A stretch of DNA of 28,891 bases from a virus, in the IMG/VR virus record IMGVR_UViG_3300024265_000170, positions 1 through 28,891 of that record; one strand, 5' to 3'. A program made the translations under genes and the position numbers. Positions within the stretch are counted from its first letter, which is position 1; the number at the start of each line of letters is the position of its first letter. The notes below the pieces were generated by a model. It ran no database searches, was not told the DNA's origin, and saw only the letters and a program-made list of their open reading frames with translations. Shown here one piece after another: positions 414 through 21,465 of this stretch.

Positions 414-1463
414 TTAAACTCCAAATAAATTGATTTGAGGCTTTTCATAAGCTCCAAGAGTCATATTCTCATAAGGATCCAGCAGCTCAGTGACAGCCTC
501 TGGGACGCCGTCTTTTAATTTGGTGAAGCTTTGCCCCATAGTTCCTTTGCTTAAAACGCCGAGAGTTCTGTTCGATCGTTGGAACTCCCAGAATTCAATG
601 ATTTGAAGAGTCGCCATTTTGATTCCGCCCGGAACATCATCGGCATCCAGCGCCCAACCAGCTTCATAATTTACGCGAATCGAGCCAAGCTCAGATCCTG
701 AAAAGACTCGACCAATGACGTTATTCTCATCATCATCTCTGAGAGCAATATCATTTCCAATTTTAGTCAAAGCAACATCCGCATCTTGAGGGATATCAGC
801 CACACCTCTCAACAAAAAGTTGATAGGATCTAACTCGGTTTCCGCGCCAAAATTTCGATTGAAATCAATAAATATTGAGTTTATTTGTCTAATAGGCCAA
901 TGGCTTGGGACAATTACATTTGAATTGTTCCCGTCTAGATCTTCCTGCTTTGTTCTAGTGATCACATTTGTTTGAATATAACGCTCCACCCAATCCGTAG
1001 CTGAGTTGATCAAAAGCTCATATCTTTTTCGGCGTTCCTCGACTCCTTTATCAAAAGCAACATCATCAAGACCGCCAGCTAAATTGGCCACAGCCACAGG
1101 ACTCGTTTGAGCTGTTGCCCCAGTTCCTGAGACAGTCACGTCGACCAAAGCCGCGGCGGCTGGGAATCCATCCACCAAAGCTTTCACAGCGTCGGCATCA
1201 GTTGTTCCGTCGGGGAATGTCACCTCGATAACATTCGCCGAAGGAACCGCAACAGCAGCGACTCCGTCTTTATATTCAATTGTGATGGCATTTCCCAAAA
1301 CACCAACCAATTTGGCAATGTATGTCAAATCCTGAATAACAAGAAAAGCCTTCACCTCAGCCTGAGGAACATCAATCTTTATATCCTCAACACCAAGCCA
1401 TTCAGCGACCTCGTCGACTGTACAATAAACTTTAGCTTTTAATTTACTGATAAATGTAGCCAT
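414..1463 (-). CDS. Head-tail connector (HK97 gp6-like) with an inserted N-terminal domain
   Basis: 349 aa, ATG at 1463 after GGAGG 5 nt upstream. Residues about 140-349 read as a gp6/YqbG-type connector: a helical start (VEERRKRYELLINSATDWVE), then a region ending in a helix about amides typical of ring-forming adaptors that dock under the portal. Connectors of this family are usually about 100-200 aa. Here residues about 45-133 form an extra Ala/Val/Gly-rich beta module (IEYKDG, VTFPDGTTDADAV, LAGGLDD) of a type that recurs in phage structural proteins, placed between the first helix and the rest. It follows the decoration genes and precedes the gp10-like gene. The connector role is fairly secure; the function of the insert is unknown. 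Confidence 0.75.
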   Translation of the reverse strand: MATFISKLKAKVYCTVDEVAEWLGVEDIKIDVPQAEVKAFLVIQDLTYIAKLVGVLGNAITIEYKDGVAAVAVPSANVIEVTFPDGTTDADAVKALVDGFPAAAALVDVTVSGTGATAQTSPVAVANLAGGLDDVAFDKGVEERRKRYELLINSATDWVERYIQTNVITRTKQEDLDGNNSNVIVPSHWPIRQINSIFIDFNRNFGAETELDPINFLLRGVADIPQDADVALTKIGNDIALRDDDENNVIGRVFSGSELGSIRVNYEAGWALDADDVPGGIKMATLQIIEFWEFQRSNRTLGVLSKGTMGQSFTKLKDGVPEAVTELLDPYENMTLGAYEKPQINLFGV

Positions 1464-4142: not shown

Positions 4143-5498
4143 TTACAGTGCGATATTGAAGATCTCCGCGCCAGAACTCTCTGTGGCGTAGTTTGATCCG
4201 TCAGCTTTCAATACAGCTTGGAAGGCGTACCTTTGAAAGCTAACCATATCGAGGACATCCAACTCAGTCTTATTCGAGTCCACTCGAACTTGAACCGGTC
4301 GTCTCAATCCAGTAAACCAACGCTTGCGGTTTACCATGAGGACTGATCCTCGGATGTTATTTGGAACAGTTGCAGAGTTAACTCCAGTCGTGTCCAGATC
4401 CTCTCGGAGATATTCGCTGACAATAACTGGCATTCCTTCGTAAGCTGCGAGTTGACCAGTGATCACGGTTGCTTTCGCTCCCAATTGCTCCATGGTTCGA
4501 ACATCGTCAAGCTGAAGAAGTTGGTTGTAAACTTTTGGACCTGAGATCAAAACCAATTGGCTTGGATCTACACCGAATTTGCCCATTTTTGCTCGACCGT
4601 CTGAAAGTTCAGATTCACTAATAGCCGCATCGCCCACATCTACTCGAGAATCTGGATCAGCAGCCTGCAAACGAACTCGAATCCCATCCCAAGCCGTCTC
4701 AGGAGTTGTGGCCAAAATTGAAGCGATGGTCGTACCACCGGCAACATCGGGCAACTGTGAGAAGTTATGCATGGCGCCAGTTGAATCGCCTTCAAGGATC
4801 GCGATTTCAACCGACTTTTCTTGGCCTTCAATCAACTCAATCCTGATAGCGCGAACGATATCTGGAGCAGAATCTTCATTTAACTCCTCGGGCAACTCAT
4901 AACGGTTAGCGAGCTTCACCGCGTCAAACTGAATTGTCTCATCAGTGTTAAAGACTTGCTTGGCGCCTGCTGTGGCCTGACCAAGCTTCCGAGCAACGGC
5001 ACCATTCGTTAGAACTGGCCATTTAAACGGATTTGAAGGCATTCGGACTTCCATGAAAAGCCCGGAGACTTTTCGATCCAAATTGAATTCATCTATATAT
5101 GAGCTGGCGACCAACGTTGGGATCCATTCGAAACCCTCGTCACCTGATTCAATACCAAAGGCCTTCATGGTGTACTGAAAATTGTCATTGTAATATTTGA
5201 GATCTTTCACATCTTTTTTGAAGAGCTGTGCTGAGATCATCAAAACATCCACATCCTCTTTGAATTGCTTAGCTAAAGCAATTTCATCAGCTCCGAGATA
5301 TGCGTATTTTTTGTCAGAAGTGTCCACACTGAGAAGAGCGTCAAAACTTTTTGCTCCCCAACCGCTCAGCTTTGTGCGAGCCGCTTTAGGCATAAGCTTT
5401 TTGTTTGCCGGTTTTGCTGGTTTTCCACTGGCTGCTGCTTTCGCTTTGGCTGTGGCCACCTGTTTACGCAAAGTCGCTACGGTTTGTTTGAGATTCAT
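4143..5498 (-). CDS. Major capsid protein, HK97 fold
   Basis: 451 aa, ATG at 5498 with GGAG 6 nt upstream. The first 45 residues are Ala/Lys-rich (ATLRKQVATAKAKAAASGK), followed by a helical region to about residue 110; this looks like a delta-domain that guides assembly and would be removed by the upstream protease. The rest fits the HK97 coat fold: an E-loop and spine helix region, then GVDPSQLVLISGPKVYNQLL and a P-domain ending in RRPVQVRVDSNKTELD and SFQRYAFQAV. Gene order (protease, scaffold candidate, capsid) supports it. The cleavage site cannot be read from sequence alone. Two TTGTAnATA motifs precede it and a terminator follows. Confidence 0.92.
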   Translation of the reverse strand: MNLKQTVATLRKQVATAKAKAAASGKPAKPANKKLMPKAARTKLSGWGAKSFDALLSVDTSDKKYAYLGADEIALAKQFKEDVDVLMISAQLFKKDVKDLKYYNDNFQYTMKAFGIESGDEGFEWIPTLVASSYIDEFNLDRKVSGLFMEVRMPSNPFKWPVLTNGAVARKLGQATAGAKQVFNTDETIQFDAVKLANRYELPEELNEDSAPDIVRAIRIELIEGQEKSVEIAILEGDSTGAMHNFSQLPDVAGGTTIASILATTPETAWDGIRVRLQAADPDSRVDVGDAAISESELSDGRAKMGKFGVDPSQLVLISGPKVYNQLLQLDDVRTMEQLGAKATVITGQLAAYEGMPVIVSEYLREDLDTTGVNSATVPNNIRGSVLMVNRKRWFTGLRRPVQVRVDSNKTELDVLDMVSFQRYAFQAVLKADGSNYATESSGAEIFNIAL

Positions 5499-6250: not shown

Positions 6251-6940
6251 TTACTGTTCTTTTTTAGATTCTTGATAAATTTCAACTAACTCACTAACAA
6301 AACCCGGATCAATCTTCTCATCACTAGACAGCTGATTCATTGCCTCGCAAAGGAACGTCTTGAAATCATCCGACATCGAAACATCAGATTTATCATCGCC
6401 CTTCTCACCTTCTGTCGGCTCAAACTTCGCAAATGGATTGCATGGAATAGTGACAACCGAAATCTCCAAGAGTTCGATTTCTTTAACAATATTGACAGCT
6501 TCGCCCTTGTCCCAATCAGCATCAAGCTCATTGTAGCCAATGGAAAAGGTTTTGAGAGCGCCTTCGTCAATCTTGGTTCGCACGTCCTCAACATCTTTGG
6601 CCTTTGAGATCATAGCTTTGACCCAAAGTCCTTTTCTTTCAGCATTCTCGTCATTTATGATCTTGAACTCGATAACTTTGCCGATGATCTTGTCCCAATC
6701 GTGTTGGAATAAAAGGACAGGATTCTCCATAAATTCAGACATTGTCTTTTCAAATGCTGATGGAAGGATTATGTCGTCGACGCGATCTTTGTCGGAAGTG
6801 TTAGCAAAACCTTGGATGAAAATATTTCCTTTTCCATCCTTTTCGACCGACTTTTTGTCCCAGTCGATAGCGCAAGTCATCCGCTTCATTTTTTCTGCGG
6901 AGTGTCGCTTATGTTTGTCTTTTATATTGTAGCACTTCAT
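6251..6940 (-). CDS. Prohead protease, HK97 gp4-like (peptidase S78)
   Basis: 229 aa. The S78 family matures proheads by cutting the capsid delta-domain and scaffold. Catalytic landmarks are present: His80 in LLFQHDWDKIIGKV, Ser133 in LKTFSIGY, and an acidic residue near Glu159 in the strand ELLEISVVTIP that ends in CNPFA. The N-terminal part has the typical GFANTSDKDRVDDIILPSAF strand. The C-terminal 55 residues are acidic and likely disordered. The ATG at 6940 has GGGA about 10 nt upstream, slightly long, but no internal start is better. It lies between the portal and the scaffold candidate as expected. Confidence 0.92.
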   Translation of the reverse strand: MKCYNIKDKHKRHSAEKMKRMTCAIDWDKKSVEKDGKGNIFIQGFANTSDKDRVDDIILPSAFEKTMSEFMENPVLLFQHDWDKIIGKVIEFKIINDENAERKGLWVKAMISKAKDVEDVRTKIDEGALKTFSIGYNELDADWDKGEAVNIVKEIELLEISVVTIPCNPFAKFEPTEGEKGDDKSDVSMSDDFKTFLCEAMNQLSSDEKIDPGFVSELVEIYQESKKEQ

Positions 6941-6993: not shown

Positions 6994-9987
6994 CTATGAA
7001 TGGATCGGACACCTTTTCTTTGGTGGTTTTTCACACATAGAATGAGCAGCCGCTGCGGCCTGATCTGGCTTCATCCCCTCATCAATTAGTTTAGGGATAG
7101 CTCTTTGGACACATTCGTCCACAGTCTCTTTAGGCTTACGTGTTACCTTTTCGTGAATTAATTGAGCTTTTCCCAAAGCCTTCATGATTTCTTTATTCCG
7201 CCATTTCGAGGATCGTTTGGCCAAATTTTTCCGTAATTTTGATTCAGCCTCAGAAACCGGTTGAGTTAATGGAGATCTGTCGCCGACAATATCTTGGATG
7301 GCTTCTTTGTCCTCTTCCAAGAAATCAACCACAGTGCAGCGACAATTTATAACTTCTTTAGCCTCTCCGCCCGGCTCCCGCGGGAATTTTAGACCGTTAG
7401 CAAATGTCTCATCAACTCCGACCACATCCTCATTTATCGCCTCATGTGAATCGCGAACCTTGGAATCCCTGGAATCTAGCCACATCTTTTTAAGATTTTC
7501 AGCCTCATCTGGAAATTGAGCCTTGAATTCATTACGTTTTAACTGCTGGCCAATGGAGACTCCGGTCAAAGTTTCGGTCCTGGCGATTGTCTTGGCATTC
7601 GCGAACTCGCCAAAAACATCCTTGATCCTAGACTCTAGTTCAGTAACAGACACCGATTCAGCGACGCTTGAAGTTATGACATTTTTAAGCTGGTCCAATC
7701 TATTCTCAGTAATTGAAACCACATTTTTGGCTGCGATCTTCTTCAAAGCCTTCAGCGCGTCCTCGTTGGGATATGGGATCTCTTTAGGAACTGTCGAATT
7801 TTTATATCCATGGCGAGCGGCTCTGATCATGGCTGTTGAAGCGAACCCCGCAAGTTCTTTAATCTGGAACGCCTTGAGATCATCTTGATCCGGGAGGATG
7901 TCTTTAGTCTTTCCGCCATCTCTCCACCATGCTCCCAACCCTTTCCCGGTGGAAGCTTCTAAATTGCGTAGGATCCACTTTTCAAATCGTTTAAAGAAGG
8001 CCGCTGTCTCCACAGCCCGCTCCTCAATCATATCCTCAACACCCTCTCCTGAGACCAATTTCCAATAACTTACGAGTTCTTTCTCGGTCATTCCACAAGA
8101 AAAGACTTTCTCCCCATCATCCATTTCGTCAGATCCAGCTGAAATAGGTCCGCCTGTTTGGCCACCATTAACCCGGTCTTGATGCGTGTGGTCGTCTGAA
8201 TCATTTGCTAAAGAGGTTCGGCCAAGCCGATTCCCACTCTCATCGAAAACCCAATGGAAATGACTTTCACCCATAACCACCTTTCCGCCTGTGTCGCGGT
8301 CTGTCGAATCTTTGTGGACATGCGGCCCCTTGGATCTCTTTTCCCCATCATCATTTTCAGCCGGGGAAAGCCCCTCTTCTTGGGCCTGTTGGATAGCCCT
8401 TGGAATCGCGATATGTAATGCAACGCCCTGGACAGCAGCTTCGCCGACCAACTCAATCACACGGTCATCAAAGCCTGTATCTGTTTCAACGACATCGTTA
8501 TTAGCCATGTCATTCTGGGCATTTGCGGTATCTATTTTCTCTTGCCCTCTCCCTGCAGCCAATTGGAACGGGCTAGCCGACCTATTAGCTTGAGCGACCG
8601 CTGGAACGATCTTGCCCGATCCGTCTTCAAGCGGCGGAAGCTTCCATATCTTTTCTCTGATCTCATCGATTGAAGCTCCTGTTCCTTTCATTGCGTTGGC
8701 TATTGCTCCCAGCTTAACTAAATCTTCCTTCAAAGCTTCTATGTCATCGAAACTAAAGCCCATTCTGAGATTGCGTTCTTTCTTTAAAACAATAGGGGAC
8801 TTGTTTATCGCAGCTGCGATGATCGCCACAATCGGCATGATCGTATCTATATAATAAGTTGTGTTCTGGATTAAAGCGTTGGAGAAGGTGGCTCCATCAA
8901 GCAAACCGACCTTGATTGGCGGAACATTAAAGGCTGACAAGATCGGCTCTTTATTATTCTTCAAGAAATCAATCAGAGATGTTTGGCCAGGATTTTGCTC
9001 CATCTCTTTATATTCCATCCCGTCTGGAAGGATTAAGGTCTTGTGATGATTACGCTTTCCGGTAAATTGAGCAGAGAAACTCTTCTCTAATCGATTAACC
9101 TGCTCTCTGGTCAGCTTCCTTTTGGCCTGGATAACCCCGCCAAGTCTTGCGCCCTGCTTATAAAATCTGAGCATATGCTCCATGGCATATCGATCGAGCA
9201 GAATATTTTTGATTACGCCGACAATTGGAGAATGGCCAACCAATGGATCGCATGGATTGGGGAGCTTAATGTGGATAACTTCTTCGGCTGGGAATTCAAT
9301 ATCAGCCTCATCATTGATCATTTTATAGCCGCGGATGAATTTATTGTGGTTTTCCTCATCAATAACAGCCTCGACTAAAGCTGAGTTGAGCCTGAACATA
9401 TTTTTGACATTGGTCTTTCTTATTCGATCCATGGCCTCTTGGAGTCTTTGAGATGATCCATCCGAAAGATCTGAACCGGCCTGATCACACCAAATAAAAG
9501 CTTCACCGGTTGCCAACAAATCCATGACGATGAGCATCCAGAATTCAATCCCCGTCATTATACTGTTAGGAAATCTCATGACGTTCATCTCTGGCTCGCC
9601 GCTGGCATCGACCCAAACTTCTTTTGAGACTGTACCTTTTGAACCATCTGGATTTTCTATCTCTTCCTTTTTAAAGAACCTCTTATCTAATTTAACCGGT
9701 AGAGCGCCAATTGTTTTGGCAATAGTATGGACCGCTATGAAGAACCAAGTCTCAGTACAATATAATCTTTGGAGAAACATCTTATTAACTTGCTCGTCGA
9801 CGACATTGAAGAAGCCTCCGAGAGGTGCAGCGCCATCGGTTGAGACGGCTTTTTCCTCAATGATTGCAATCTGTTCATTAAATTCCTTTTCATCAGCGAG
9901 CTTATCAAATTCATTTTGCAAATCTTTTATTTGATTTTCTAAGTCGCTTGTCTTCTTTTTGAATGGATTCAAATCTTTTATTTTCAT
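6994..9987 (-). CDS. Portal protein fused to Mu gpF-like head protein
   Basis: 997 aa, about twice a normal HK97-type portal. Residues about 55-450 are a phage portal domain (TETWFFIAVHTIAKTIGALP, the long clip/wing region, EPILSAFNVPP, GATFSNA). Residues 553-615 hold a His-rich module (PHVHKD, ESHFHW, DDHTHQD, GGQTGGP), probably metal binding. Residues about 790-890 are a Mu gpF-like minor head domain (ARTET at 802, DSRDSKVRDSHE at 838-849, INCRC at 880-884). The last 45 residues contain the phage motif ECVQRAIPKLIDEG...HSMC with Cys959, Cys985 and Cys993. ATG 9987 has AGGA 6 nt upstream. These are normally separate genes; the fusion would put portal and gpF-like copies in a fixed 1:1 ratio unless cleaved. 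Confidence 0.9.
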   Translation of the reverse strand: MKIKDLNPFKKKTSDLENQIKDLQNEFDKLADEKEFNEQIAIIEEKAVSTDGAAPLGGFFNVVDEQVNKMFLQRLYCTETWFFIAVHTIAKTIGALPVKLDKRFFKKEEIENPDGSKGTVSKEVWVDASGEPEMNVMRFPNSIMTGIEFWMLIVMDLLATGEAFIWCDQAGSDLSDGSSQRLQEAMDRIRKTNVKNMFRLNSALVEAVIDEENHNKFIRGYKMINDEADIEFPAEEVIHIKLPNPCDPLVGHSPIVGVIKNILLDRYAMEHMLRFYKQGARLGGVIQAKRKLTREQVNRLEKSFSAQFTGKRNHHKTLILPDGMEYKEMEQNPGQTSLIDFLKNNKEPILSAFNVPPIKVGLLDGATFSNALIQNTTYYIDTIMPIVAIIAAAINKSPIVLKKERNLRMGFSFDDIEALKEDLVKLGAIANAMKGTGASIDEIREKIWKLPPLEDGSGKIVPAVAQANRSASPFQLAAGRGQEKIDTANAQNDMANNDVVETDTGFDDRVIELVGEAAVQGVALHIAIPRAIQQAQEEGLSPAENDDGEKRSKGPHVHKDSTDRDTGGKVVMGESHFHWVFDESGNRLGRTSLANDSDDHTHQDRVNGGQTGGPISAGSDEMDDGEKVFSCGMTEKELVSYWKLVSGEGVEDMIEERAVETAAFFKRFEKWILRNLEASTGKGLGAWWRDGGKTKDILPDQDDLKAFQIKELAGFASTAMIRAARHGYKNSTVPKEIPYPNEDALKALKKIAAKNVVSITENRLDQLKNVITSSVAESVSVTELESRIKDVFGEFANAKTIARTETLTGVSIGQQLKRNEFKAQFPDEAENLKKMWLDSRDSKVRDSHEAINEDVVGVDETFANGLKFPREPGGEAKEVINCRCTVVDFLEEDKEAIQDIVGDRSPLTQPVSEAESKLRKNLAKRSSKWRNKEIMKALGKAQLIHEKVTRKPKETVDECVQRAIPKLIDEGMKPDQAAAAAHSMCEKPPKKRCPIHS

Positions 9988-10018
9988 GAGCCGTCCTATT
10001 ATTTTTGTCTGACATAAA

Positions 10019-10028
10019 CTATCTACAA
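10019..10028 (-). promoter_or_regulatory. TTGTAGATAG motif upstream of portal gene
   Basis: Minus-strand TTGTAGATAG, followed by TTTATGTC, 32-41 nt before the portal ATG. Candidate late promoter for the head operon, facing away from the plus-strand copy at 10116. Confidence 0.45.
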
Positions 10029-10115
10029 CAACCGGATAAGTTGGCGAAATAGCTTGAGTTTCTTATTAAACTTTTTATTTGATTTCTTTGACGTAATAAA
10101 ACCAGACCACGCAAG

Positions 10116-10124
10116 TTGTAAATA
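10116..10124 (+). promoter_or_regulatory. TTGTAAATA motif upstream of phosphoesterase gene
   Basis: Plus-strand TTGTAAATA, 50-58 nt before the ATG at 10174, in the 186-nt divergent gap. It is the only plus-strand copy of the motif and precedes the only plus-strand genes, which supports a promoter role. A TTGACG at 10088 is too far upstream for a standard -35/-10 pair with it. Confidence 0.45.
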
Positions 10125-10173
10125 TCTATTGAACGGAACCTAAAAACGAAACGAACCACAACCGGAGAATTGA

Positions 10174-11316
10174 ATGTCAGACAAAAAATCACGCCGAATT
10201 GCGTCCGCTGATCTATTATCCGAAACCGAGTCAAAATTCCACAAAAACGCCACAGCCGAAGATTGCATCAACGATCTGCGGCGAGTCCAAAAGAGAAATG
10301 ATTCAACCTTTATCACCCGCATCAAATACAGAAACCTTGGCCGGTATTCTGACAGAACCTGGAACCGATTCTTCGGAACCTTCCTTGAGTTCAGAAAACA
10401 GGCCGGTCTCGAGCTGTCCCGCGGAGCCCAGAGGATGGAGCGAGAGATCGCCAAACACGCCTCCCATGATATATATCGCGAGTTCTTTAACGATGAGGTG
10501 CTGCCTTGGTACAATAAACACGCTAAGAAAGACCGCAAAAAACACCCTATAAGGACCATGGCCGTCGTCTCAGATATTCATGACATCGAGTGTGATGAGT
10601 TTACGTTATCTGTTTTTATATCACAGTGCGAAATGAGACAGCCTGACATCATCGCTCTGAATGGAGATATCTTCGATCTCCCAGAATTCTCCAAATTCGA
10701 CAAAGATCCTCGAGCCATGAAAAGTCGGGAAAGGTACAATTTTGTTAAGTCTAGAATCTTTGCCCCGTTGAGAAAAGCTTGCCCAAATGCCCAGATCGAT
10801 TTCCTCATGGGAAATCACGAATTCAGACTCTTGAGACACTTCGCCGATCGCTCCCCTTATCTGAAGATCTGGCTGTCCGATATAATGGACATCACCTTCG
10901 CCGACTTCTTTGGCCTGGAAGAGTTCGAGATCAACTGGACTTCAAAGCTGGACCTTGGATGTTATACAAAAAGCGACATTCAGAAAGAGCTTCGCCAAAA
11001 CTACAAATATTATTATGACCAAACCTATGTCCTTTCTCATGAGCCTGAAACCTTTGGCATCTCTGGATCAAATGGACATCACCACACATTGGAGATGAGA
11101 TCCTTTTCCAACACCCCATCTTCTCAATACACATGGGTCCAAACCCCTGGCCTCCATAAGCTTGACGCGGAATATATAAAGGGCTTGAACAAATGGAATC
11201 TCGGCTTCCTCTTCGTTACAATCAACACCTTGCATAAATCTGTCATACAGGAGCCGGTCCAGGTCCATGAGGATTGGGCCTTGGTCAATGGCGTTTACTA
11301 TTCAAAGAAAGGCTGA
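10174..11316 (+). CDS. Metallophosphoesterase with N-terminal HNH-associated DNA-binding repeat
   Basis: 380 aa, ATG at 10174 with GGAG 6 nt upstream. Residues about 27-84 match the HNH-endonuclease-associated repeat: TAEDCINDLRRVQ, then LGRYSDRTWNRFFGTFLEFRKQAGL, a small helical module that accompanies homing-type nucleases. Residues 127-350 form a calcineurin-like phosphoesterase with all metal motifs: D134-x-H136, G164-D165...D168, G213-N-H-E216, H289 (SHEPE), and GHHH at 301-304. The enzyme should hydrolyse phosphodiesters or phosphomonoesters with two metals; attached to a DNA-binding repeat, a nuclease or DNA-end processing role is an inference. It is on the strand opposite to its neighbours and sits before the portal gene. 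Confidence 0.88.
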   Translation: MSDKKSRRIASADLLSETESKFHKNATAEDCINDLRRVQKRNDSTFITRIKYRNLGRYSDRTWNRFFGTFLEFRKQAGLELSRGAQRMEREIAKHASHDIYREFFNDEVLPWYNKHAKKDRKKHPIRTMAVVSDIHDIECDEFTLSVFISQCEMRQPDIIALNGDIFDLPEFSKFDKDPRAMKSRERYNFVKSRIFAPLRKACPNAQIDFLMGNHEFRLLRHFADRSPYLKIWLSDIMDITFADFFGLEEFEINWTSKLDLGCYTKSDIQKELRQNYKYYYDQTYVLSHEPETFGISGSNGHHHTLEMRSFSNTPSSQYTWVQTPGLHKLDAEYIKGLNKWNLGFLFVTINTLHKSVIQEPVQVHEDWALVNGVYYSKKG

Positions 11317-15285: not shown

Positions 15286-15865
15286 TTTTGTCTCCCTTGG
15301 GGCCAGATAACTCCGGCAATTGTAATGTTGAGGAGGTCTCAGTCTCTCCGGAACCTCTATAGATTTTTTCGGCTTTTTCCAAAAACATATTAAAGTTAAT
15401 ATTCTTTTGATCATACTTTTCTTTATCACTGGCCCCAGACTCCCATCGTGTTGAAGCGTCATCATTAAAATAAGCAAAGAAGCTCTTCAACATCTGTTGG
15501 ACATCCTCATCTCTTTTCTGAGCTACACCGAGAAGGGTTTGTCGACGACGTTTCCAATCTTCAACCTCAGCCCTAGCTTGATCACGATCGCCTGTAATAA
15601 TTTCAAGATGCTGCTGCAAAGTAAAAATCTCATTGATAACTCGCTGAGGATCCATCACAGCCATGCGCCTTATCTGTGACTTGGAATTCATCTTTGGGAG
15701 CTTTTCCTGTTCGGCCTTTAAAGACTCAACCTCTAGAGATAACTGATTGCAATGCTCCTCGAGCTGTTCATAAGTTGCCTTTGGAGCTACTGGTTTGGCG
15801 TTAGTCCAATTTTCCTCATTACAAGCAATACAATTCTCAACGTTATGATTCTCACATCTATTCAT
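15272..15865 (-). CDS. Coiled-coil protein with N-terminal Cys/His cluster
   Basis: 197 aa from ATG 15865, which overlaps the upstream gene's end by 8 nt; no strong ribosome site is seen, so coupling is likely. The N-terminus CENHNVENCIACNEENW is a probable zinc knuckle, followed by a long helix (ATYEQLEEHCNQLSLEVESL and QHLEIITGDRDQARAEVEDW) with heptad pattern. The C-terminus is polar. Such proteins often act as structural adaptors; nothing more specific is visible. Earlier ATGs would extend the overlap and have worse sites. Confidence 0.65.
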   Translation of the reverse strand: MNRCENHNVENCIACNEENWTNAKPVAPKATYEQLEEHCNQLSLEVESLKAEQEKLPKMNSKSQIRRMAVMDPQRVINEIFTLQQHLEIITGDRDQARAEVEDWKRRRQTLLGVAQKRDEDVQQMLKSFFAYFNDDASTRWESGASDKEKYDQKNINFNMFLEKAEKIYRGSGETETSSTLQLPELSGPKGDKNESG

Positions 15866-16187
15866 GAGCTTTGACCATTTCTTGAATTCCATGCAACTCA
15901 TAACCAAGACAGCCAAGCCTGTGTTTAACGCGAGCCTCAAGACTTGGCTGCTCGTCACCATGGGGATCGAGATCCTGCCTTAATGAATCGAAAGCGTCTT
16001 GCATCTGATCATCTAATATCTGAAGTCTAGCGGTCAATTCTTTCGCGGTCTTTGGTGGAGGATCTTCTCTTGGCCAATCCTTACTCAACATCTTGTGGCC
16101 ATTATCACACCAAGAATAACCGTTTGGTCTACGCTCTGTTGAAATTTCTATACTTCCACATTTTGGACATGGTTTCATTTTTCCCAT
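15858..16187 (-). CDS. Zinc-ribbon phage protein (Lar-like N-terminus)
   Basis: 109 aa from ATG 16187; GGAGG 5 nt upstream decides this over the longer frame. The N-terminus MKPCPKCGSIEISTERRPNG...CDNGH looks like the short zinc ribbon seen in Lar-type restriction-alleviation and other small phage proteins. The rest is helical (LTARLQILDDQMQDAFDSLRQD, LGCLGYELHGIQEMVKAHE). It is the first gene after one of the three matched promoters, heading the 16187-to-11660 leftward run. Restriction alleviation is only one possibility. Confidence 0.7.
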   Translation of the reverse strand: MGKMKPCPKCGSIEISTERRPNGYSWCDNGHKMLSKDWPREDPPPKTAKELTARLQILDDQMQDAFDSLRQDLDPHGDEQPSLEARVKHRLGCLGYELHGIQEMVKAHE

Positions 16188-16206
16188 AATTTCCTCCGTC
16201 ACATTA

Positions 16207-16237
16207 GTTATACCGACAACGGATGAAACCGGTTCAA
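16207..16237 (-). promoter_or_regulatory. Promoter P1 of matched set (TTGAAC-19-TATAAC)
   Basis: Minus-strand TTGAAC (16237-16232), 19 nt, TATAAC (16212-16207), then CTAATGTGACGGAGG, the ribosome site of the gene starting at 16187. Its layout matches P2 and P3 base for base around GGTATAACYAA and TGACGG. Confidence 0.7.
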
Positions 16238-16247
16238 TTTTCTTAAT

Positions 16248-16442
16248 TTAATTCAGCAGAGAGATATCTCTCGCCATTACCGTCTTACGCTGATCTGCTT
16301 TAGCGCTGGCCTGAGCTGCTGTCAGAATGTCCCGGACAATAACCGATAGAGAATTGATTACTTCCTCCGAAGTATTCATCGCCGCAGCCTCTTTGTTAAA
16401 CTGTTTGATTCTGCTTGTCACTACTAATGGTAATTTATTCAT
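16248..16442 (-). CDS. Single-domain histone-fold protein (bacterial/archaeal-type histone)
   Basis: 64 aa, ATG at 16442 with AAAGGAG 6 nt upstream. The sequence reads as one histone fold: N-terminal LPLVVTSRIKQF (alpha1), a long helix about residues 25-50 (SEEVINSLSVIVRDILTAAQ), then QRKTVMARDI at 51-60. The last motif copies archaeal HMfB's GRKTIKAEDI, including the R-D clamp pair R52 and D59 seven residues apart. Alpha3 is cut short, as in the Bdellovibrio histone Bd0055, which is about 61 aa. Archaeal relatives wrap DNA; Bd0055 bends or coats it. It lies 18 nt after the BCS1-like gene, so both are cotranscribed. Identification rests on motif and length; no search was run. Confidence 0.85.
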   Translation of the reverse strand: MNKLPLVVTSRIKQFNKEAAAMNTSEEVINSLSVIVRDILTAAQASAKADQRKTVMARDISLLN

Positions 16443-16460
16443 TTACTTCTCCTTTGGTTA

Positions 16461-17747
16461 TTATTCTCCACACAACTCAACAACTTTATCTGGTTTATTT
16501 TTATTGTTTAAAACCATGCCCTGGAATTCAGCAGGCGAAATACCTTTCTTTATAGTGAATTCCCCTTTAGGCATATCATAGTTTGGATAAAATCGCTTCA
16601 TACCATAAATAAACGTCTCTTTATTTAAAGGTCCCAAAACTATTTTAAGATCAGTTCTGCCCTTTCTAAGAATTGCTGGATCTAACGCATCTATATTGTT
16701 GGTGGTCATGACTAATATTCTGCCACAAGCGCTTGTGGATCCATCAATAGCATTCAAAATACCAGACAGAGTCAGAAATGAAAATCCAGACGAACGGCCC
16801 TCCAATACAGTATCTTCTTCAGACTTTGTATCCTTAGACTCATCGACACTTCTCTGAACAGCATTTCTTTTATTAGTTGAACTAAAGCAATCGATATCTT
16901 CAATGGAAACAACAGCATCTTTGCCAGCTGTTAGGAGAGCTTTTTCAAATGAAGTGTCACCAACACTGCTCAAGTTTATCTTATAAAGATCTTTTTTAAA
17001 GTATCCGCATAAGCATTTGGATAGTGTGGTCTTGCCCGTACCTGGGATACCGCTAAAATTTATTCCAAATTGATACGGTATGCCATGCATTATATAATAA
17101 TCTTCACTTAATAAAAACTCTTCAATCTCTTCAATAAGATTCTCTCTAATAGAATTAGACAATATCGCTGAATCCATACTCCTTGAGACCTGCCTATGAG
17201 AAAAAGTCCAACCATTAGTTTCCCAAGTGTAAACCTTTGTCTCTTTATTTTTATCGATTTTCTTTTTACACATTGAAAATAAACTTCGAATAGGCTCCTG
17301 ACTTCGGCCTAATATAGATATTTTTATTGTCTCTTTTGGCCTTATTCCTATTGAATCTTTTTCGGTTCTTTCTATTTTAAACAAACGCAAACCAATAAAG
17401 ATATAATGAACCCCTTTACCAAAAGACAAGTTTACAGAACCAGTACCGTATGAATTATTGTTGGCAGTTAGTATTCTTGCTTTCTTTGAAAATCCTGCAT
17501 CTTCATACCAAATGGTAAAATCCTGAAAGACTTCATCATAGTTATGAATCACAACCGAAACTGTTAACTGTTTTGTAATAAATTCAAGCAGCTTTTTAGG
17601 TACGTCCTTATAGATGAAGCTAAAAACACCAAGAACCCAAAGAGTTATAACCCCACCTATAACAGGATTGGTTTGTGCAAATAACTGAAAGGTTGTAATT
17701 ATTTCCTTCATGTATTGAAAGATAGACAGCTTTATTATGTTTTCCAT
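16461..17747 (-). CDS. Membrane-anchored BCS1-like AAA+ ATPase
   Basis: 428 aa, ATG at 17747 with GGGGAG 6 nt upstream. Residues about 28-46 (PVIGGVITLWVLGVFSFIY) form one membrane segment, followed by a beta-rich BCS1-N-type domain to about 190. The AAA+ core has Walker A GIPGTGKTT (233-241), Walker B VVSIEDID (279-286), sensor 1 Asn350 (MTTNNIDALDP) and Arg361/Arg364 as finger candidates (ILRKGRTD), the last run being a BCS1 signature. Mitochondrial BCS1 moves folded Rieske protein across a membrane; bacterial and phage relatives are poorly known. The insert at about 290-325 is polar and unlike BCS1. Own promoter P2 upstream; cotranscribed with the histone gene. Confidence 0.88.
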   Translation of the reverse strand: MENIIKLSIFQYMKEIITTFQLFAQTNPVIGGVITLWVLGVFSFIYKDVPKKLLEFITKQLTVSVVIHNYDEVFQDFTIWYEDAGFSKKARILTANNNSYGTGSVNLSFGKGVHYIFIGLRLFKIERTEKDSIGIRPKETIKISILGRSQEPIRSLFSMCKKKIDKNKETKVYTWETNGWTFSHRQVSRSMDSAILSNSIRENLIEEIEEFLLSEDYYIMHGIPYQFGINFSGIPGTGKTTLSKCLCGYFKKDLYKINLSSVGDTSFEKALLTAGKDAVVSIEDIDCFSSTNKRNAVQRSVDESKDTKSEEDTVLEGRSSGFSFLTLSGILNAIDGSTSACGRILVMTTNNIDALDPAILRKGRTDLKIVLGPLNKETFIYGMKRFYPNYDMPKGEFTIKKGISPAEFQGMVLNNKNKPDKVVELCGE

Positions 17748-17768
17748 TTATTTCTCCCCGTCAGATTG

Positions 17769-17799
17769 GTTATACCCACCAGACCCGGATGTGGATAAA
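17769..17799 (-). promoter_or_regulatory. Promoter P2 of matched set (TTTATC-19-TATAAC)
   Basis: Minus-strand TTTATC (17799-17794), 19 nt, TATAAC (17774-17769), then CAATCTGACGGGGAG, the ribosome site of the BCS1-like gene. The -35 overlaps the T-tract of the adjacent terminator. Confidence 0.65.
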
Positions 17800-17822
17800 A
17801 AAAAGACCCCGAAAGGTCTTTT
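17797..17822 (-). terminator. Rho-independent terminator after the 231-aa gene
   Basis: Minus-strand AAAAGACC, loop TTTCGG, GGTCTTTT, then more Ts. It closes the 18732-17853 unit and immediately precedes P2; on the plus strand it also resembles a weaker hairpin with T-tract. Confidence 0.85.
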
Positions 17823-17852: not shown

Positions 17853-18548
17853 TTATTGACTGAACGCGTTCTCGAATGATCCAAGCTCATTACCAGCTAC
17901 CGGCTGAGGAACTGGAACCTGTGGAGCTACAGGAGCAACCTGAACAGGAGCAATTGTTGGCGCTACCTCAACAGCAGGAGTTGGAACCGGTTCGGGTTGT
18001 CTAGCCGCTTCAACAGCTTCAACCACTTGGTCAACAGTTTCAACAATCTTAGAAACCTCAGGTCCTTTGGTTCCATCAATAACAGGAGCTTCTCCGCCAT
18101 CAGCTATTTGAGGATTGTTCTCAAATGTCTCTGAAGATGGACCTGGCTCTAATTCGCCCGGCTTATTGTTCATAGTGAACTCATCCATGTCCTTTTCTTT
18201 AATGATTTCACCAGTCTTTAGATTGACGAATCGGATCTTAAAACCGATGTAATCGTATTCGGCCAAACAAGAAACCTTTCTCTCTTCTTCGCCAAGGTGA
18301 ATCTTTGTCAAAAGCTTTTGTACTTCTGATCTCAATCCTTTGACCTGATCATCTTTCTCTTTCTTGAACCGCTTAACTGAATCCTCGATCTCGAATGCAT
18401 CAGCTTGAAGTTGGCCAGCCTCTTGAGCCATCTCCACCTTTTCATTCTTACCAATCACAAAGACTGCATGAGTCTCTGTCTCCTGGCGATAGACCTGATT
18501 GTCTAGATCGAACATTTCTCGGTTGATTTCTGTTTTCTTTTTTCCCAT
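17853..18548 (-). CDS. Coiled-coil protein with Pro/Val-rich tail, unknown
   Basis: 231 aa, ATG at 18548 with GGGGAG upstream. Residues about 35-95 are helical and charged (KVEMAQEAGQLQADAFEIED, KRFKKEKDDQVKGLRSEVQK); residues about 100-130 resemble a small phage module (EERKVSCLAEYDYIGFKIRFV, LKTGEIIKEKDM). The last 100 residues are a disordered Pro/Val/Ala tail (PEPVPTPAVEVAPTIAPVQV) ending in a polar tag (ELGSFENAFSQ). It follows the 57-aa gene by 10 nt and shares promoter P3 and the terminator at 17797. Function unknown. Confidence 0.7.
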   Translation of the reverse strand: MGKKKTEINREMFDLDNQVYRQETETHAVFVIGKNEKVEMAQEAGQLQADAFEIEDSVKRFKKEKDDQVKGLRSEVQKLLTKIHLGEEERKVSCLAEYDYIGFKIRFVNLKTGEIIKEKDMDEFTMNNKPGELEPGPSSETFENNPQIADGGEAPVIDGTKGPEVSKIVETVDQVVEAVEAARQPEPVPTPAVEVAPTIAPVQVAPVAPQVPVPQPVAGNELGSFENAFSQ

Positions 18549-18558
18549 TCTTCTCCCC

Positions 18559-18732
18559 TTAATGCGGTATCCTGAACCGCTCTATTATATTTAATAATGC
18601 GCCGCTTTGGCCATCTGTTAGATAACCAAACTCAGCTATTTTGTTTTCCATTTTGTCGACGAAATCCGTATCGAAGTCAGGACGTTCTTTGGCCCAATGT
18701 TGAATGATGTAGATCATATCTTGATCGGTCAT
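18559..18732 (-). CDS. Small phage protein (57 aa), unknown
   Basis: A 57-aa gene, ATG at 18732, with GGGGG 6 nt upstream and promoter P3 just before it. It reads as an all-helical protein: MIYIIQHWAKERPDFDTDFVDKM, then YLTDGQSGALLNIIERFRI. The Q....L..I..RF.I ending recurs in small phage proteins of unknown function. It is first in a two-gene unit with the 231-aa protein. Confidence 0.7.
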   Translation of the reverse strand: MTDQDMIYIIQHWAKERPDFDTDFVDKMENKIAEFGYLTDGQSGALLNIIERFRIPH

Positions 18733-18752
18733 AAAAAACCCCCGTCAGCTTA

Positions 18753-18783
18753 GTTATACCGACGAAGGCTCAAAGTGGTTCAA
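18753..18783 (-). promoter_or_regulatory. Promoter P3 of matched set (TTGAAC-19-TATAAC)
   Basis: Minus-strand TTGAAC (18783-18778), 19 nt, TATAAC (18758-18753), then CTAAGCTGACGGGGG, the ribosome site of the 57-aa gene. Nearly identical to P1 from -35 to ribosome site. Confidence 0.7.
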
Positions 18784-18796
18784 AATACTTTATTTT

Positions 18797-20219: not shown

Positions 20220-20237
20220 CTATAAAGTACATTCTAA
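20220..20237. repeat. Short intergenic repeat, copy A2
   Basis: Minus-strand TTAGAATGTACTTTATAG; it includes the last codons and the TAG stop of the radical SAM gene. Partner of 12186-12204. Confidence 0.45.
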
Positions 20238-21236
20238 AACTTCTAAATATTTATCTGGCTTGCTAAACTCTAGATACTTCTTAATATCTGACTCGGCTCT
20301 CGTATTCCCGATGGGGTGCCTTTTTTGCACAAACTCAGGAAAGGGCATCTTTTTAAAATATGCGGGCTGGTTACACCATGCTGCTAATGATGTATATAGA
20401 CTCTGATCAGGGCTGCACCAGCATAAAGCGTGTCGCATGTAGTAAGGATTAACTTTATTTTTTCTACACCATTCAATTCGCCAAAGATCATCTCGGATAG
20501 ACGAGTCGTAACCGCCCAAGACAAACATTCTGCACTTCCAGTCAGAAGATATGTGCTTTTTGACTATCTCTAGCTTTTTTCCCATTATTTTAGCCAACCG
20601 GATATGATCGAAAGCAAATGTGTAGTTCCCTATATAGTTAAGTTCGCTTAGAGCTTTCGCATTAGCATCTGTAATCAATCTAATATCTAGACCTTGATTA
20701 AATTGACACTTTAGTTTTTTGTCTTTTATTTCTTCCAAGACTTCCAAATGCTTGCGATAAGCTAATATATTGTTGTCCATAAAGAACACCTTATTATGCT
20801 TAACAATCTGATCAACGGTTCTGTATTTATAAATACCGCCCTCTTTTTCAGGGACCACACAGAAAGAGCATTTCCGGGGGCATCCTCTAGTTATAAACCC
20901 ATACGACGATTTGTTATTAGGATATATCCCGTAGTCTTCCCCTATGGAGTCTATCTCAGGGGAAAGGTTGACGGCGTTGACCCCTGTTCCGCCAACTTTC
21001 ACATTCTCCATACTTTCAAAACCAAAGCGATCTGCGTTGACTGAGAATATGCAAGAGGCGTAAACCTTATCGTATTCAGTGTTGTTTATGATCACCCTGG
21101 ATTTTTTGCTAGGATAACCATTAAACCCAAGACGTTGCATTTCAACAGTATAATCTTGACGCTTGTAAAATTCTGATAGCTTCATCAAAGCTAAATTAGG
21201 AATTTTACTATCAACATCTACCAGTAATACATTCAC
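20220..21236 (-). CDS. Radical SAM protein
   Basis: 338 aa, starting with GTG 21236 (AGGGG 5 nt upstream); the longer frame reads into the previous gene. A Rossmann-like N-terminal region (NVLLVDVDSKIPNLALMKLS) precedes the radical SAM motif CPRKCSFC with Cys119, Cys123 and Cys126, which holds a 4Fe-4S cluster that cleaves S-adenosylmethionine. It continues with the expected beta-alpha segments (KVFFMDNNILAYRKH, CQFNQGLDIRLI) and a Cys-bearing C-terminal part (HALCWCSP). The layout resembles B12-binding-domain radical SAM enzymes. The substrate is unknown; a role in modifying DNA, RNA or a peptide cannot be told apart here. Confidence 0.85.
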   Translation of the reverse strand: MNVLLVDVDSKIPNLALMKLSEFYKRQDYTVEMQRLGFNGYPSKKSRVIINNTEYDKVYASCIFSVNADRFGFESMENVKVGGTGVNAVNLSPEIDSIGEDYGIYPNNKSSYGFITRGCPRKCSFCVVPEKEGGIYKYRTVDQIVKHNKVFFMDNNILAYRKHLEVLEEIKDKKLKCQFNQGLDIRLITDANAKALSELNYIGNYTFAFDHIRLAKIMGKKLEIVKKHISSDWKCRMFVLGGYDSSIRDDLWRIEWCRKNKVNPYYMRHALCWCSPDQSLYTSLAAWCNQPAYFKKMPFPEFVQKRHPIGNTRAESDIKKYLEFSKPDKYLEVLECTL

Positions 21237-21252
21237 TCTCACCCCTACGCGT

Positions 21253-21465
21253 TTAGCCAAACATCTTCTCAAAGAATTTGTGAGTATTATAAACAGCATC
21301 CTGACAATAATATGGCAGAGTGTAGAATCTAACTTTACAATATGGATCTTCAATCATTAACCACTTATCTGAACTGCTACGATATAGCACATGCCCCACT
21401 ACATAAACAGCTATGATCTTATCCAGCCAGCGCATTCTGTCGGTGATCCAATAGATCCATTTCAT
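21253..21465 (-). CDS. Small aromatic-rich protein, unknown
   Basis: 70 aa from ATG 21465 (AGGGAT 7 nt upstream); the longer frame starts with a TTG that lacks a site. The sequence is rich in Trp/Tyr (WIYWITDRMRWLDKIIAVYVV, VRFYTLPYYCQDAVY). A short hydrophobic part could be a peripheral membrane helix. No family recognised. It precedes the radical SAM gene by 16 nt in the same message. Confidence 0.55.
   Translation of the reverse strand: MKWIYWITDRMRWLDKIIAVYVVGHVLYRSSSDKWLMIEDPYCKVRFYTLPYYCQDAVYNTHKFFEKMFG

Follow-up and report, generated by a model that had tools for sequence, protein, structure and literature searches.

The window, a viral contig of 28,891 bases from IMG/VR, is part of the genome of a tailed phage, with nearly all of its genes on the minus strand. 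In the gene order on that strand, a head module stands at the end and a pair of genes, encoding a BCS1-like ATPase and a histone, lies upstream of it. The head module contains the following genes.

414-1463, minus strand: head-tail adaptor
4143-5498, minus strand: capsid protein
6251-6940, minus strand: protease
6994-9987, minus strand: portal protein and Mu F-like head-morphogenesis domain, joined in one ORF of 997 amino acids

Relatives of the portal fusion on two other contigs (L215, L216) align along most of its length. On the plus strand, one gene alone is clearly supported, that for a metallophosphoesterase (10174-11316; phrog_20266, 1.7e-68), and a radical-SAM protein is encoded on the minus strand in the accessory region (20220-21353; phrog_9298, 1.3e-61).

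The ATPase and histone genes, with the elements around them, are laid out as follows.

16194-16239, minus strand: promoter-like repeat, copy 1, just 3′ of the histone stop codon, where the next unit (ORF 15858-16202) begins
16248-16442, minus strand: HBb-type (bacterial-dimer class) histone, 64 amino acids
16443-16460, minus strand: 18-nt spacer between the ATPase and histone genes, with the ribosome site AAAGGAGAAG
16461-17747, minus strand: BCS1-like AAA+ ATPase, 428 amino acids
17756-17801, minus strand: promoter-like repeat, copy 2 (P2), before the ATPase gene; contains TATAAC, and a short leader has the ribosome site GGGGAGAA at its end
17801-17822, minus strand: intrinsic-terminator-like hairpin with a stem of 9 bp and a T run, at the end of the upstream unit and past ORF 17853-18548
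18740-18785, minus strand: promoter-like repeat, copy 3, ahead of ORF 18559-18732

The range given for the unit in the initial annotation, 16248-17799, is correct, and the 18-nt gap and strong ribosome sites that it described were confirmed from the sequence; read on the minus strand, the spacer carries a strong site before the histone gene, TAACCAAAGGAGAAGTAA-ATG. A sequence scan found no terminator or promoter inside the spacer. The core of the promoter-like repeat, GGTATAACYAATSTGACGG, occurs at 16196-16214, 17758-17776 and 18742-18760, three copies compared to none expected from shuffling. The repeat unit is 46-57 nt long (families D4 and D8) and every copy is located at the 5′ end of a minus-strand ORF, with one copy before the ATPase gene and another just past the histone gene, flanking the two-gene unit. 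The promoter P2 proposed earlier stands as a copy of this repeat, which is the support for it, but it is absent from the list of sigma-70-like matches in the promoter scan, and its reading as a plain sigma-70 site was rejected for that reason; the TATAAC repeat is a candidate phage-specific promoter. The terminator proposed upstream is likewise present as a hairpin (17822-17801), but terminator-like sites in the region are no more numerous than the shuffled expectation. The spacing, the repeat copies on both sides and the upstream hairpin together support the single two-gene transcription unit that had been described, and the ATPase and histone are probably read from one transcript. A second contig (L002), 99.98% identical over 11.4 kb, carries the same gene pair.

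Judged from its sequence and a predicted structure, the product of 16461-17747 is a BCS1-family AAA+ protein with the full BCS1 architecture, in agreement with its earlier naming. It was matched by the Pfam families BCS1_N (7.8e-18) and AAA (1.5e-14) and, over its whole length, by phrog_7485 (8.2e-86). Its AlphaFold (AF2) model, with a pLDDT of 85, was aligned by Foldseek to Bcs1 at full length (E of 1.5e-29, TM of 0.70), and the 17 best PDB matches were all Bcs1. The domain order is an N-terminal transmembrane helix at about residues 28-46, a BCS1-specific domain at 39-193, the AAA domain at about 200-380 and a putative lid extending to the C-terminus, the lid profile PF25426 scoring 20.2 bits (E of 5.8e-4), below its 27-bit cut-off. 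Strong hydrophobicity is confined to residues 28-46 (19 residues, Kyte-Doolittle 1.95), which supports the membrane segment noted previously. Nine ATPases, aligned first, proved too diverse for use as a search query; among 26 sequences of phage relatives, G233, G236, G238 and K239, E283 and D284, N350, and R361 and R364 are invariant or nearly so, and the conserved columns correspond to the Walker A and B motifs, sensor 1 and the arginine fingers.

BCS1-related AAA genes were present in 159 annotated phage records, mostly of large-genome phages, and different neighbours follow the BCS1 gene in each phage. In the ATPase tree, the smallest supported clade (97/93) that holds the window copy also holds two other phages (L099, L102) and two genes from Bdellovibrionota bins. 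Of 291 Bdellovibrionota genomes, three had a BCS1-like gene, compared to none of 379 from another phylum, in a search whose control scored four candidates per genome. The GC content of the ATPase gene, 34.4% (z −2.5), is the lowest among the genes measured.

The protein encoded at 16248-16442, previously named a histone-fold protein, was confirmed as such by PF00808 (22.7 bits, over the cut-off of 21.4), by phmmer matches to Bdellovibrio HBb (8fvx/8cmp, 3.4e-11) and by Foldseek, where HBb took the first five places, with 51-53% of residues identical when structurally aligned, for a model of modest quality (pLDDT 81.5, pTM 0.54). A RKTVMARD motif is located at residues 52-59 and the protein ends five residues past it, with no C-terminal extension. 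Ten DNA-contact residues have been described for HBb, namely T8, S9, K10, K12, K16, N22, S24, K52, T53 and R57 (PMC11317129), and the aligned residues of the window histone (T9, S10, R11, K13, K17, N23, S25, K53, T54 and R58) are identical at nine of the ten positions, the exception being K10, which is R here. Also kept are the RD clamp (R52/D59) and the hydrophobic residues of the dimer interface (I12, L32, V36, I39 and I60), while the C-terminus reads SLLN where most host copies end in I-D-H-L/I. By sequence and model, this phage-encoded histone belongs to the "bacterial dimer" (HBb-type) class and is closely related to HBb.

Among the best 80 histone matches, taken as one genome per bacterial species, nearly all were labelled Bdellovibrionota. 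In a tree with HTkC of Thermococcus kodakarensis (9f2c) as the outgroup, the window histone is found on a long branch whose exact place is poorly resolved, the tree having 64 columns and long branches; this branch length indicates that the gene is no recent acquisition from any of the hosts sampled. The base composition of the histone gene is typical among the genes measured (z +0.1). An HBb-type histone on a contig labelled Streptomyces griseus (L007) also grouped with the Bdellovibrionota copies, so that the contig was probably binned or named in error.

The adjacency of the two genes had been taken to suggest a phage system for anchoring, remodelling or compacting DNA at the membrane, or one in which the ATPase loads or strips the histone. 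In the other phage and bacterial genomes, the pair did not recur in any collection searched, the near-identical contig aside. Scans of IMG/VR with histone queries returned three further contigs, L002, L003 and L006, of which the last two are different phages from that of the window and carry an HBb-type histone without a BCS1 gene. With a profile of 86 histones, no histone was found at 80 viral BCS1 loci (flanks of up to 10 kb) or at 13 annotated phage loci, L002 excepted, and a PF00808 search of 16 whole contigs gave matches in L002, L003 and L006 only. The ATPase and histone genes are both missing from seven phages of the same lineage, whose capsid proteins are 59-65% identical to that of the window and whose head modules are syntenic with it; the contigs of three of the seven are 76-79 kb long. 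Phages close enough for this comparison are a small sample. No histone was found beside the three Bdellovibrionota BCS1 genes in the stretches around them. A conserved BCS1-histone pair was therefore rejected, as searches from the ATPase, histone and capsid genes recovered it only in the 99.98% identical contig.

Two of the contigs recovered in these scans showed further features of their own. On L003, from a phage or prophage, the histone gene (9866-10132) is located shortly upstream of RusA-like and terminase genes. On L006, a high-GC phage contig, genes for a radical-SAM QueE-like protein, a FolE-like protein, an HBb-type histone and a QueC-like protein stand in a row (8135-10998). These assignments, read from the sequence, suggest a gene set for modifying DNA with 7-deazaguanine, interrupted by the histone gene.

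A functional pair would fit the 18-nt spacing, the strong ribosome sites, the common promoter-like element and the upstream terminator-like hairpin. In such a pair, the membrane ring of BCS1 would act on the histone by binding, loading, stripping or exporting it, or would hold phage DNA coated with histone at the membrane. BCS1 handles folded substrates, and the histone dimer, small and folded, might be one of them. We nevertheless consider such a pair improbable, since no second lineage carries both genes, each gene is found without the other and their base compositions differ; the functional link proposed in the initial annotation is thus unsupported. The absence of the pair elsewhere, the capsid relatives lacking both genes and the contrast in GC content indicate instead an accessory cassette assembled from two sources, not a conserved machine.

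Given how close the histone is to Bdellovibrio HBb, the host is probably a Bdellovibrio-like (Bdellovibrionota) predator, and the nearest relatives of the ATPase weakly point to the same phylum. Searches for relatives of the capsid and portal proteins in Bdellovibrionota genomes, prophages included, found none, the probes being run without a positive control. With a Bdellovibrionota-like histone and ATPase on one side and no portal or capsid match on the other, the host assignment is only probable.

A host of this kind raises the question of whether the phage histone acts on host chromatin. HBb is abundant and reported to be essential in B. bacteriovorus (PMC11390915, PMC11317129), and a phage protein that keeps the dimer-interface positions and has a different C-terminal tail (SLLN) might heterodimerise with HBb or displace it, altering host chromatin and transcription, with the BCS1 protein unrelated to this activity. 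The histones of L003 and L006 also keep the core with other tails, however, and a plain DNA-binding role fits equally well, so that a takeover or decoy of the host nucleoid seems to us an unlikely account of the cassette.

The bacterial relatives of the ATPase showed a different gene context. At two Bdellovibrionota loci (L191:555-2914, on a contig also numbered L206, and L207:6932-9254), a BCS1-like AAA gene 41% identical to that of the window is divergent from a gene for a WYL-domain regulator, and a HicA/HicB-like pair and a nuclease-like ORF are located near the L207 copy. This BCS1-WYL arrangement looks like an undescribed defence-type locus. Because the nearest bacterial BCS1 relatives adjoin WYL regulators, and because the WYL protein of L191 matches PADLOC WYL models and one of the loci has the HicA/HicB-like and nuclease-like neighbours, the window unit could be read as a cassette for phage-phage or host-phage conflict, with BCS1 as a phage-borne defence or exclusion ATPase. 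The window gene has no WYL neighbour, however, and BCS1 is carried by many lytic jumbo phages. PADLOC gave only weak, generic AAA matches of the window ATPase to IetA/TRIP13, on which grounds its membership of a defence system was rejected. We regard a conflict cassette as very unlikely.

The reading that we favour, with somewhat better than even confidence, is an accessory cassette of a tailed phage of probable Bdellovibrionota host, with its own promoter-like repeat and two most likely independent proteins. That the ATPase and histone function independently is, taken by itself, likewise somewhat more probable than not, in view of the absence of the pair elsewhere, the contrast in GC content and the different neighbours that follow BCS1 in each phage; the tight spacing and the probable common promoter weigh against it, as they would also be expected of a functional pair. 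The cassette would be read from its own promoter-like repeat, and the common transcript would give the two proteins joint timing, not necessarily a joint function. The ATPase would be anchored in the inner membrane by its one N-terminal helix, a topology predicted from the hydrophobic stretch. Bcs1 is a heptamer, and by homology the ATPase would also assemble into a ring, which would move or remodel folded protein substrates at the membrane. One candidate role is in membrane-proximal virion assembly, as proposed for jumbo-phage BCS1 (PMC7824862). The histone would probably dimerise, contact the DNA backbone without sequence preference and bend the DNA by about 80-90 degrees, acting on intracellular phage DNA, host DNA or both, and in a host already using HBb it may compete or heterodimerise with the host protein.

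The main interest of the locus is not the pairing but the presence of an HBb-type histone on three different phage contigs (the window, L003 and L006). A tblastn search gave no match to the histone in annotated phage genomes, and no report of an HBb-type histone in a phage was found in the literature searched. The three contigs make it a testable proposal that histone chromatin in bacteria is exploited, mimicked or disturbed by phages. More broadly, phages of histone-bearing predators may possess HBb-type histones, seen in at least three unrelated phages, with which they organise their DNA or remodel host chromatin; in the phage of the window this would be coupled to a membrane BCS1 motor. We put this generalisation forward as tentative and doubtful as a whole. 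Few phages of predatory bacteria are known, to our knowledge, and the HBb-type histone offers a sequence handle on them.

Compared to known systems, the ATPase has the domain order and fold of mitochondrial BCS1 (PDB 8tp1, 6ukp, 9gs2) at 24% identity, although the Rieske-protein substrate of the mitochondrial enzyme is not relevant to a phage. It shares the transmembrane helix, BCS1_N and AAA domains over the full length, at 24-40% identity, with the phage BCS1-like AAA+ proteins of phrog_7485 (phiKZ PHIKZ286, CcrColossus and the Brevundimonas jumbo phages); most of those isolates have large genomes, whereas no contig from the relatives of the window lineage exceeds 79 kb, and BCS1 is absent from them. 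The copies at the Bdellovibrionota BCS1-WYL loci (L191, L192/L207) fall in the same supported clade at 41% identity but, unlike the window gene, are found in bacterial bins beside a WYL regulator.

For the histone, the "phage histones" of Schwab et al. 2024 share an alpha3-type histone fold and a tailed-phage genome with the window protein, but they lack the RxTxxxD motif and have a C-terminal helical tetramerisation domain (PMC11390915). In the window histone the RKT..RD motif is present and a C-terminal helix is lacking, which places it outside that class, and this assignment was rejected. With HBb/Bd0055 of Bdellovibrio bacteriovorus (PDB 8cmp, 8fvx, 9ezz), it has in common its length, the alpha3-short histone fold, the RKT..RD motif, the DNA-contact residues and the dimer-interface hydrophobics, and it differs in being phage-borne, in the changes of K10 to R and of K13 and I15 to Q and N, and in lacking the typical I-D-H-L ending. 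Each of the two proteins adds a member to a family already known, and the HBb-type histone in a phage is the new point with respect to the literature searched.
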